64,000 nucleotides of DNA from a virus, in the IMG/VR virus record IMGVR_UViG_3300021371_000009, positions 1 through 64,000 of that record. One strand, written 5' to 3'. A program made the translations under genes and the position numbers. Below the pieces are notes generated by a model. That model saw only the letters and a program-made list of their open reading frames with translations. It made no database searches and was not told the origin of the DNA. Shown piece by piece: positions 32,687-35,467 of this stretch. Positions within the stretch are counted from its first letter, which is position 1. Each line of letters begins with the position of its first letter.

Positions 32687-33256
32687 TTAAACACCATCGT
32701 GTGTTACCGATCCAGATTTTACTCGATCCTCAGGTATTGCAATTTCTTTTGCAATCATATAGAAATCTCTAACTTCGACATCTCTATCAGTATTTTCGTT
32801 TCTAACTTTCACTTCAAAGGTAATCGCATTAGTTACTCTAGGTATATATGCATGTGTGAGAGCAACATTACTTCTAAAATTACTTGTTGATCCATAGCGA
32901 CTATGGGAAGTGTTCAATCTATCGTTTCTACCGCCATGATGACTAAATGTATTACCGTAAGGGGTTAACCCATGAAATCCATTTTGCTCATACTCATTAA
33001 TACCATTTGCAAATAATGCCGCCGCGTAAGTATCTAATGTGTTTGTTCCTCCGCCAACATCTCCCATTACAAAACTAGCACTTATTTCCATTATGCTTGT
33101 TGCATATAGTGGTGTAATTGTAAGTGGCGAATTATCAATTGTGGTAAATTGATTAGAATTTGTGCTATGAATCCAAGAACCAGAATTTTCTGAAAATTTA
33201 TATTGGATTAATAAAGAACCTTTCACTGCCCTTTTAGTTATCTTTTGTAAGGCCAT
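32687..33256 (-). CDS. paralogue array member 5: virion protein, fibre/decoration-like (189 aa)
   Basis: It begins MALQKITKRAVKGS, like four neighbours, and contains FSHHGGRNDRL shared with the 33277 gene, SIMEISASF where neighbours have SILE, and a C-terminal FYMIAKEIAI. It is a beta-rich, aromatic protein probably exposed on the virion. A 33-base stretch is identical to the neighbouring gene (see repeat entry). Function is not known from sequence. Confidence 0.65.
   Translation of the reverse strand: MALQKITKRAVKGSLLIQYKFSENSGSWIHSTNSNQFTTIDNSPLTITPLYATSIMEISASFVMGDVGGGTNTLDTYAAALFANGINEYEQNGFHGLTPYGNTFSHHGGRNDRLNTSHSRYGSTSNFRSNVALTHAYIPRVTNAITFEVKVRNENTDRDVEVRDFYMIAKEIAIPEDRVKSGSVTHDGV
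32916..32948. repeat. 33-base repeat shared by two paralogues (copy 1)
   Basis: Positions 32916-32948 are identical to 33485-33517, encoding the SHHGGRNDRL region. Recent duplication or gene conversion is the likely cause. Confidence 0.8.
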
Positions 33257-33276
33257 ACATTAAAATTCCTTATTGA

Positions 33277-33825
33277 TTAGTTCTGACTACCAGAACTTGC
33301 TAATCCTATTGAAATTTCCTTTGCAATTAAAAATAAATCTCTGACCATAAAGTTTCTGTCTGCCGTACATCTTGCACGAACATCAATATCTTGTTCATTA
33401 GTTGTTCCTGGAGTAAAAGCATGGTTCATATTAAGTGCATATGATTGTCCAGTTGCATGGCCATGTCTACTAGTGGAAGTGCGTAATCTATCGTTTCTAC
33501 CGCCATGATGACTAAATTGATTACCGTAAGGTCTAAGTCCACCAAGTGAAGTTACTAAATATTCTTGACTATCATTAACGTAAATTGCGCCTTGATATGT
33601 ATCAGTTACATTTGATGCGTTTTCCGTATCTCTCACGGACATATTTGATTGTGTTTCTAGTATTGAATCGGCATACTGTGGCGTCATTAATATATTTTTA
33701 CCGTTAATTTGAGTAAAGGTACTTGATGCGGTATTAATATCAAAGTCACCAGTATTCTCAACGTACTTAAATTGTACTAAGAGAGACCCATGTACAATAT
33801 GTTTTGTTACTCTTGTTAATGCCAT
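33277..33825 (-). CDS. paralogue array member 4: virion protein, fibre/decoration-like (182 aa)
   Basis: Begins MALTRVTKHIVHGS; has MTPQYADSILE (near residues 47-57), FSHHGGRNDRLRTSTSRHG and C-terminal LFLIAKEIS. It is closest to the downstream member 5 by the HHGGRNDRL motif. Role is inferred from its array: a receptor-facing or decorating beta protein. Confidence 0.65.
   Translation of the reverse strand: MALTRVTKHIVHGSLLVQFKYVENTGDFDINTASSTFTQINGKNILMTPQYADSILETQSNMSVRDTENASNVTDTYQGAIYVNDSQEYLVTSLGGLRPYGNQFSHHGGRNDRLRTSTSRHGHATGQSYALNMNHAFTPGTTNEQDIDVRARCTADRNFMVRDLFLIAKEISIGLASSGSQN
33485..33517. repeat. 33-base repeat shared by two paralogues (copy 2)
   Basis: Identical to 32916-32948; lies in the same relative place of the neighbouring paralogue. 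Confidence 0.8.
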
Positions 33826-33836
33826 TTTTTTCCCTC

Positions 33837-34370
33837 TTACGTTAAGTTATAATGTTCGCCAGCAATTTCTGAAATGGTTATAAAACCATCTTGAAAACTT
33901 ACCGTAGCACTTGTATTTTCCATTGCAACCCATGTTCCTACTTCTTGAGCGGCAGTTGATCCTGGAGCATGAATATGGTTCATGTAAATTGCTGTTCCCA
34001 TGCCATAATGTCTCCAGTTCTGTCTACCATTTCCTTCTCCAAACTGTTGGTTTTGATGGTTGTGATTGCCGCCGCGAGATTGATTGGTCCCAATAATTCC
34101 TTTTTGAATGTATTCATCACTGCCATTTACTACAAATTTTGCCATACCCGAATGATATCCGGCAACGCCTGCGCCAGACGAGGTTAATTGTGCAGAACCA
34201 GTGCAAACAAGTTCTAAGTGACTATCACTGTATTGCGGTGTAACAGTTGTGTTATCACCCCACTGAACAAAGGTGGAACTATTATTTGTCACATTAGAAA
34301 AATCTTTACCATAATGTGCAATTAACACCGATCCATATACAATGTGTTTAGTTACTTTTGTTAATGCCAT
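33837..34370 (-). CDS. paralogue array member 3: virion protein, fibre/decoration-like (177 aa)
   Basis: Begins MALTKVTKHIVYGS; has VTPQYSDSHLELVCTGSAQL, then HNHQNQQFGEGNGRQNWRHYG, shared with member 2, and a final ITISEIAGEHYNLT. Gly/Asn/His-rich core segments and a short aromatic C-terminus are typical for this array. A late promoter (CATAAATA, 34395-34402) lies about 25 bases upstream of the ATG. Confidence 0.65.
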   Translation of the reverse strand: MALTKVTKHIVYGSVLIAHYGKDFSNVTNNSSTFVQWGDNTTVTPQYSDSHLELVCTGSAQLTSSGAGVAGYHSGMAKFVVNGSDEYIQKGIIGTNQSRGGNHNHQNQQFGEGNGRQNWRHYGMGTAIYMNHIHAPGSTAAQEVGTWVAMENTSATVSFQDGFITISEIAGEHYNLT

Positions 34371-34394
34371 TTCCCATATTCCTTTTTATATATC

Positions 34395-34402
34395 TATTTA
34401 TG
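34395..34402 (-). promoter_or_regulatory. late promoter CATAAATA within the paralogue array
   Basis: Minus strand CATAAATAGATA, about 25 bases before the ATG at 34370; overlaps the 3' end of the upstream member. Confidence 0.5.
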
Positions 34403-34919
34403 TAAGATTAAAACCTAAGTCAGATAACTCTGAAACGGTCATAAAACCACCTTGAAAAATAACTGGCGGAGATGTAGTAGCAATCTGACATTGTATTTCT
34501 TGTTTATTATTACTGACTAATTGATATAGATGGTTTAAATATACTGTTGATCCTGTTCCATAAACTCTAAAGTTCTGTCTACCATTTGCTTCGCCAAACT
34601 GTTGGTTTTGATGGGAGTGGTCGCCGGATCTTTGTTGATTTAGTCCAACAATATCTCTTATCAAATGTTCTTCTTGACCATTAATCATCAATCTGAGTTT
34701 ACCTGCATAAAATCCAGCGGCCAGGTTACCGGTTAGTTGAGCAGAACCTGTTACTACTACTTCGATTATATTTTTTGGGTCATTTGGTGTGAAGTCTAAT
34801 TGGTCACCCCAATTGGTAAAAGTAGAACTAGAAGTTGAAGCATCAGTCATATCCATGCCATAATGCGAAACTAGAACTGATCCATAAACCGCTCTTTTAC
34901 TCACTTTCTTTAATGCCAT
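34398..34919 (-). CDS. paralogue array member 2: virion protein, fibre/decoration-like (173 aa)
   Basis: Begins MALKKVSKRAVYGS; has FTPNDPKNIIEVVVTGSAQL, HSHQNQQFGEANGRQNFRVYG and a final MTVSELSDLGFNLT, nearly parallel to member 3. The two share QNQQFGE and GRQN motifs. The gene starts about 20 bases after member 1 with short spacing, indicating a single transcript. Confidence 0.65.
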   Translation of the reverse strand: MALKKVSKRAVYGSVLVSHYGMDMTDASTSSSTFTNWGDQLDFTPNDPKNIIEVVVTGSAQLTGNLAAGFYAGKLRLMINGQEEHLIRDIVGLNQQRSGDHSHQNQQFGEANGRQNFRVYGTGSTVYLNHLYQLVSNNKQEIQCQIATTSPPVIFQGGFMTVSELSDLGFNLT

Positions 34920-34939
34920 GTTATAAAGTTCCTATTATA

Positions 34940-35467
34940 TTAGTTTACATAGTTGTTACTTGGTGTTCCTGTTACGATACCTCCAGCAACTTCTTTTACC
35001 ATGATAAACCCATCTCTTCCTTGTAAGTTACCACCTCCATCATTATTACTTCTATTTGCTTGTATAGTACATGTTTGTAAGTTTGTAGTTCCCGGTAAAT
35101 GTCTATGATAAAGACTTACAGATTTACCTTCTCTACGACTGTTCGCTGAATTGTATGCCCTATCGAAAACAGAAACAGATGCGGCATCATTAATTGTATA
35201 TTCTGTTTGACCATTAACATCTAGATATAAATTTACCTCGGCGCTATCAAATGTTCCATCATTTGGTGCCCCACTATCTGCATTATTACTAAGTGTTCCA
35301 GTAAATCTACATTCCAAAATAGAGTCCGCATATTCTGGAGTTATTGTGATATTATCCCAATTTGCAATGGACGTTGCCGCGTGATCCAAGTTACCCATAT
35401 CTTTATAACGAACTTGAACGATAGTCGCTCCATACACAATGTGTTTAGTTAATTTTGTCAGTGCCAT
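34940..35467 (-). CDS. paralogue array member 1: virion protein, fibre/decoration-like (175 aa)
   Basis: Begins MALTKLTKHIVYGA; has ITPEYADSILECRFTGTLS, a more divergent middle (NSRREGKSVSLYHRHLPGT), and C-terminal FIMVKEVAGG. It is the most diverged member but keeps the N-terminal and SILE motifs, so it belongs to the family. It is the first gene of the array after the large repeat protein. Confidence 0.65.
   Translation of the reverse strand: MALTKLTKHIVYGATIVQVRYKDMGNLDHAATSIANWDNITITPEYADSILECRFTGTLSNNADSGAPNDGTFDSAEVNLYLDVNGQTEYTINDAASVSVFDRAYNSANSRREGKSVSLYHRHLPGTTNLQTCTIQANRSNNDGGGNLQGRDGFIMVKEVAGGIVTGTPSNNYVN

Follow-up and report, generated by a model that had tools for sequence, protein, structure and literature searches.

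C1q-like proteins of marine phages were proposed as receptor-binding in 2014, on the basis that their genes lie near tail fibre genes and under-recruit metavirome reads (Mizuno et al. 2014, PMC3909814). The table of metaviromic islands in that paper also lists genes for XkdW-like proteins and for the terminase small subunit. For pelagimyophages and cyanomyophages, the hypervariable interval that runs from a giant structural gene to the neck genes has been named the host recognition cluster (PMC7029224).

The stretch of DNA analysed here (the window) covers 64,000 nt of the virus record IMGVR_UViG_3300021371_000009, which is 74,442 bp long and comes from a marine T4-like (Kyanoviridae-type) phage. 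It carries a tandem array of small genes that we compare below with these systems.

Five tandem paralogous genes

The array consists of five adjacent minus-strand ORFs of 173-189 codons, s1 to s5 in transcribed order, spanning 32,687-35,467:

34940..35467, minus strand: s1, putative head protein of lineage A, 175 aa, short loop (ORF, paralogue, tree)
34398..34919, minus strand: s2, putative head protein of lineage B, 173 aa (ORF, 49% identity with s3, tree)
33837..34370, minus strand: s3, putative head protein of lineage B, 177 aa (ORF, AlphaFold2 model, TNF/C1q-like fold)
33277..33825, minus strand: s4, putative head protein of lineage C, 182 aa (ORF, tree)
32687..33256, minus strand: s5, putative head protein of lineage C, 189 aa (ORF, AlphaFold2 model, TNF/C1q-like fold)

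These five genes are true paralogues of common ancestry. Searched against the window's own record, s3 matches the other four members (E 1e-10 to 1e-52) and nothing else, which bears out an earlier sequence-only reading that had described five adjacent paralogous genes; all five ORFs are indeed present. Thirteen columns are invariant (M1, A2, L3, K8, V11, G13, T44, P45, E53, N82, E86, H132 and E168 in s3 numbering) and agree with the N-terminal plan given in that reading. Its SILE core does align in all five proteins, but the exact letters occur in s1 and s4 only (s3 SHLE, s2 NIIE, s5 SIME). Two sub-pairs stand out, with 85/173 identical aligned residues for s2/s3 and 79/182 for s4/s5 against 44-59 for the remaining pairs, and the motifs ascribed to them are present (QNQQFGE..GRQN in s2/s3, SHHGGRNDRL in s4/s5). 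Also as previously read, a 33-nt stretch is exactly identical between s5 (32916-32948) and s4 (33485-33517). Located by a direct script and absent from the repeat finder's list, it is the longest match between both genes, with a chance expectation in unrelated sequence on the order of 1e-13. The notion that the genes differ mainly in the middle did not hold, since a middle loop is the best-conserved part inside each sub-pair.

No annotated relatives were returned by blastn, by tblastn (queries s3, s4 and one of the distant B proteins) or by a search of genome contigs with the five-row array alignment. Viral contigs scanned with s4 alone gave no match, a PDB sequence search no credible match, and PHROGs and Pfam only weak, scattered ones.

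Genomic setting and late transcription

In transcribed order, a gene for a 2229-aa structural protein is followed by two small genes, a fibre-like protein, p111a, p792 and s1-s5, and then by p285, p130, gp13, gp14, gp15, the terminase genes and what we take to be the tail sheath and tube genes. The T4 names gp13-gp15 and the terminase assignment were transferred from annotated phages. The fibre-like protein upstream of p111a matches tail-fibre families, and gp13 is ~40-45% identical to the neck proteins of myophages of Pelagibacter, Methylophilales and cyanobacteria, in which fibre and variable genes occupy the interval from the giant structural gene to the neck genes. The array sits at the position of the host recognition cluster, with a giant baseplate-region gene on one side and the neck genes on the other, and within a divergent block. 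Its immediate surroundings are:

35480..37858, minus strand: p792, virion structural protein and candidate carrier (phrog_11431, E 3.5e-13), always adjoining the array
31781..32638, minus strand: p285, weakly XkdW-like, directly after the array (PF09636 in 4/11 members, best E 0.0036)
31377..31769, minus strand: p130, last gene of the diverged block (dS 0.59-0.64), kept in all relatives
38234..38241, minus strand: late promoter box of T4 type, TATAAATA, preceding p111a; the unit with p792 and s1-s5 likely starts here
32675..32682, minus strand: late promoter box ahead of p285 (T4-type box search, conservation in relatives)
31327..31334, minus strand: late promoter box ahead of gp13 (T4-type box search, conservation in relatives)

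The T4-type late box TATAAATA occurs 16 times against 6.9 expected. Among the relatives' loci tested, an exact box precedes gp13 in 9/9, p285 in 7/9 and p111a in 6/7, the seventh having one mismatch. The window's array holds no internal late box, and so s1-s5 are most likely part of a late unit starting at p111a.

Several further features of this genome were observed. The p792 protein has apparent repeats of the motif VxVDGxxQxxxxYxVxxxxLxF in several copies, and tblastn against the phage collection found no relative of it. Two 111-aa proteins flanking the fibre gene (37876-38211 and 40201-40536) are kept in every relative reaching them, and similar small proteins are found in Melnitz and Mosig phages. 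Among the DNA metabolism genes, 11239-12699 looks by eye like a tryptophan halogenase, an enzyme that in HTVC008M is annotated beside the terminase gene. Neither psbA nor CsgG was found in six record fragments of the lineage.

Copy number and lineages in related phages

A profile scan recovered 24 related loci, with the array lying between p792 and p285 wherever the contig extends there. Scans based on p130 and p792 recover the same lineage, and no contig covering the site without an array was found in them. Both borders are visible in 18 sets (window included), whose counts are not independent because several contigs are near-copies. Five genes are present in 15/18 (counting L011, with its first gene split), four in L023 and three in L024 and L026; L020 and L021 also show three genes, but these contigs begin inside the first. 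A fixed single copy across relatives, which would have counted against the sequence-only reading, is not what is seen, as the syntenic arrays hold 3, 4 or 5 copies. Two local irregularities were noted along the way. In L011 (4903-5429) s1 is broken into two overlapping frames while close copies are intact, either a sequencing error or a real frameshift, and L024 (5952-6410) has an additional 152-aa gene, located between gp15 and p123, with no counterpart in the window.

The tree resolves three lineages, A (s1), B (s2/s3) and C (s4/s5), and the three-gene arrays are composed of one A, one B and one C. Pairing within a genome is seen for the B copies of L023 and for the C copies of both L025 and L028, whereas in the window's clade s2, s3, s4 and s5 are on separate branches. 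Because the pairing differs in this way, B and C must have been duplicated, or largely homogenised, more than once, in keeping with the duplication suggested from the letters of the window. Lineage A shows no duplication in this sample.

Predicted fold

Single-chain AlphaFold2 models of s3 (pLDDT 85.0) and s5 (pLDDT 78.8) have identical strand order and present a ten-strand-type jelly-roll head that belongs, at the level of fold, to the TNF/C1q-like superfamily. The members modelled thus share one predicted fold instead of falling into unrelated ones, the outcome that would have counted against the sequence-only reading. The best VIA Z is 13.7 for s3 and 14.2 for s5. Closest to both models are the PLTL and BC2L-C lectins and Pgp3 (VIA Z 12.4-14.2), followed by BxpB, ExsF, BclA, EDA, TNF ligands and C1q-like heads (VIA Z ~10-12); Foldseek lists for both models are similar to the VIA lists. 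Matches in a viral structure library are mostly unnamed proteins of uncultured tailed phages. Pfam C1q and TNF models returned no match to 57 members at E up to 0.1, and for this reason we speak of fold likeness, not of sequence-family membership. Leaving the chain ends aside, confidence in both models is lowest between strands 6 and 7, the site of the shared motifs.

Homogenisation of the loop within genomes

The shared motifs belong to a loop of about residues 97-122, in which paralogues of one genome are more alike than elsewhere (all four from the loop analysis):

34560..34637, minus strand: shared loop of s2 (QQRSGDHSHQNQQFGEANGRQNFRVY)
34005..34082, minus strand: shared loop of s3 (QSRGGNHNHQNQQFGEGNGRQNWRHY)
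33460..33531, minus strand: shared loop of s4, holding the 33-nt copy 33485-33517
32891..32962, minus strand: shared loop of s5, holding the 33-nt copy 32916-32948

Across six genomes of the window's clade, s4/s5 identity is 0.55-0.90 in the loop versus 0.37-0.48 in the core. The longest exact s4/s5 DNA match within a genome is 33, 20, 35, 14, 23 and 40 nt, respectively, while between genomes it is 8-17 nt, plus one of 32 nt from two close relatives. When the genome labels were permuted, only the true one out of 720 assignments reached the observed sum, both for s4/s5 and for s2/s3, while for the unpaired lineages 686/720 (s3/s4) and 472/720 (s1/s3) did so; as the genomes are related, these figures are a guide and not an exact probability. 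Codons for the same amino acid agree in the loop at 76% (s4/s5) and 82% (s2/s3) of cases within genomes, compared with 57% and 61% between genomes and ~50% in the cores. The s4/s5 core tree splits both genes, except for one long L022 branch, and the s4/s5 loop rejects this separation (AU p 0.0006); the corresponding rejection for the s2/s3 loop is not significant (p 0.095).

The s4/s5 loop has been homogenised within each genome by short-tract gene conversion, and the s2/s3 loop has probably been treated likewise. What had been suspected from a single 33-base identity is thereby extended to a significant within-genome effect for s4/s5. Conversion is invoked because selection alone fails to explain the shared synonymous codons. 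Recombination among lineages A, B and C was also considered and is not supported, with s3/s4 and s1/s3 lacking a within-genome excess. The earlier proposal that recombining repeats diversify the tips stands in part: diversity from phage to phage apparently arises through exchange of the whole cassette, while the converted loop is made alike in paralogues. Since it is held alike and not diversified, partners or ligands common to a pair may bind there. A literature search for gene conversion between paralogous phage fibre genes found no precedent, although such an absence proves little.

Selection for one sequence could by itself make the loops of paralogues alike, and there is constraint on them, given that orthologues also conserve the loop (identity 0.70-0.78). 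We nevertheless give this explanation little probability: synonymous codon choices in the loop agree within genomes and far less so between genomes or in cores, and the s4/s5 loop tree rejects the gene tree. Another known source of local variation is the diversity-generating retroelement. In other phages it acts on C-type adhesin tips, and a short repeat such as the one seen here resembles a template/variable pair. That such an element produces the loop variation is nonetheless extremely unlikely. The reverse transcriptase model PF00078 matched 0/9 records (the window's record and eight relatives, all of them fragments) while the controls were positive, and the copies agree at synonymous sites, show no adenine-directed change and are both coding.

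The loops are also rich in His. The motif GxHxH occurs in 13/20 B, 0/12 A and 0/25 C loops and is absent from more distant B proteins, and is thus limited to part of the family. Relative to shuffles, HxH is found 13 versus 3.7 times in B and 16 versus 8.6 times in C, among members that are related to each other.

Apparent exchange of the whole cassette

In comparison with a relative whose neighbouring proteins are 97-100% identical to those of the window, a block of ~4 kb is strongly diverged, containing the five array genes and the two downstream (p285 and p130):

31377..35400, no strand: apparent exchanged cassette, borders approximate at 31.3-31.4 kb and ~35.4 kb (identity profile versus L035, dN/dS table)

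Within the block dS is ~0.6-1.8, against mostly 0.01-0.1 in the flanks. Versus contig 3300017969_000161, gp13 to gp15 and terL have dS of 0.018-0.037 and p792 of 0.098, while s1-s5 reach 1.0-1.8, p285 0.87 and p130 0.59 (overall ranges of the last two 0.87-0.90 and 0.59-0.64); two further contigs are concordant. At ~35.4 kb, where s1 has its conserved 5′ end, identity falls sharply from ~0.99 to 0.6-0.8; it recovers at ~31.3-31.4 kb, ahead of gp13. With an array dN/dS of ~0.2 (dS near saturation), replacement of the block by a diverged allele is more likely than fast change in place, and the whole head cassette appears to have been exchanged between near-identical phages. Positive selection over whole array genes finds no support at this dN/dS, again with dS near saturation.

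Two other genes deviate from their surroundings. The terminase small subunit-like gene terS (27969-28394) has a dS of 0.27 and a dN of 0 versus contig 3300017969_000161 where its neighbours have dS of 0.02-0.04, a pattern that exchange of a short segment might leave. The fibre-like protein of 650 aa (38246-40198) shows a dS of ~0.20 against near-identical phages, several-fold its neighbours' value, and ~51% identity to other relatives, and so makes a second variable spot of the cluster.

Function and proposed working

We consider it reasonably probable that the proteins of the array, which are small and come in three kinds (A, B and C), are made late and belong to the virion, most likely as receptor-binding heads of the tail apparatus. 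The fold, the late-promoter unit and the position in the host recognition cluster make the members plausible virion, surface-binding proteins, as the sequence-only reading had put forward. We infer a location in the virion, trimers, docking by the N-terminus and binding of a receptor, probably a glycan. A weak sequence link points the same way: Melnitz QZI95141 (hhalign E 1.4e-4, probability 53%) connects the array to proteins that in P-SSP7, MEP301 and a MedDCM phage carry tail fibre or carbohydrate-binding annotations. Several points weigh against this account. Typical fibre tips have a stalk, which the members lack, and there is no Pfam C1q/TNF match; dN/dS of ~0.2 carries no sign of whole-gene positive selection; the same fold need not mean the same function; and the AU test of the s2/s3 loop falls short of significance (p 0.095).

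Each member would comprise one TNF/C1q-like jelly-roll head behind a common N-terminal peptide, a putative anchor by which the heads may dock on p792 or on a neighbouring fibre or baseplate protein that carries them. Host range would shift by a swap of the entire head cassette. Gene conversion would keep the His/Asn/Arg-rich loop matched inside the B pair and inside the C pair, presumably because paired proteins need the same loop for a shared partner, ligand or trimer axis, and the remainder of each head would be free to diverge. It is conceivable, if rather doubtful, that s2 with s3 and s4 with s5 co-assemble via the His-rich loop, as mixed trimers or alternating rings, with conversion matching an interface or metal site and the outer faces diverging. 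If so, one phage would display several head specificities on a common core.

Instead of tail adhesins, the heads may be decoration proteins or fibres of the neck or head, comparable in role to Hoc or the wac whiskers, which would attach weakly to surfaces or make the particle more stable. In favour of this are the array's place immediately before the neck genes, the missing fibre stalk of its members and the match of p792 to a PHROG classed as head and packaging. We find this alternative unlikely, as related phages have their host recognition cluster at this site, from the fibre-like genes to gp13 (PMC7029224), and the block was apparently exchanged together with an XkdW-like gene, which fits host recognition modules (PMC3909814). 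The exchange itself could be an assembly chimera in which the array of another phage was joined in at conserved stretches: one border is in the 5′ end of s1, which is conserved, the other is close to a promoter that is conserved too, and the alternative allele is found in four contigs against one for that of the window. Because the window allele rests on a single assembly the chimera stays a rival, albeit an improbable one. It would require two joins preserving a complete, in-frame and correctly ordered array; in more distant relatives, too, the array genes exceed most core neighbours in divergence; and the window's s4/s5 and s2/s3 loops match each other as they do in other genomes.

If receptor-binding heads are indeed what the array encodes, it would offer a natural experiment in which the parts that have to match can be told from those that may vary, at a size (~180 residues) open to testing. 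An array with an apparently swapped block and a copied loop suggests how such viruses may track changing hosts.

Comparison with known systems

At the level of solved structures, the best matches of both models are the TNF-like lectins BC2L-C (N-terminal domain) and PLTL (VIA Z 12.8-14.2), bacterial lectins with ~7-15% identity to array members over aligned residues. The C-terminal domain of Pgp3 (Chlamydia) and the exosporium proteins BclA, BxpB and ExsF also have the jelly-roll fold in common with the array, but their roles and hosts are unrelated, leaving a likeness of fold alone. The GxHxH of the B loops recalls the iron-binding HxH of T4-type fibre tips: as in T4 gp37 and Alteromonas phage R22Y (PMC11705849), many B loops have such a motif and the loops are rich in His, yet with one motif per head, none in lineage A or the more distant B proteins, and another fold.

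The host recognition cluster is found at the same genomic place and is likewise hypervariable and structural. It is large and non-syntenic, with fibres and glycosyltransferases, and the passages of PMC7029224 consulted describe no tandem head family, whereas the array is compact and of fixed order. The C1q-domain, putative receptor-binding proteins of pelagiphage metaviromic islands (PMC3909814) share with the array the C1q-like jelly roll, the variability between near-identical marine phages and the place beside fibre genes, and have XkdW-like and terminase small subunit genes listed alongside them. The array differs from them in being composed of 3-5 stand-alone tandem heads in a T4-like phage, with no Pfam C1q match and with loop conversion. 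Here a T4-like lineage has a stand-alone tandem family of such heads, with proteins unmatched by sequence in the phage collection searched, and two separable modes of change, an apparent exchange of the whole cassette and a loop-sized conversion between paralogues.
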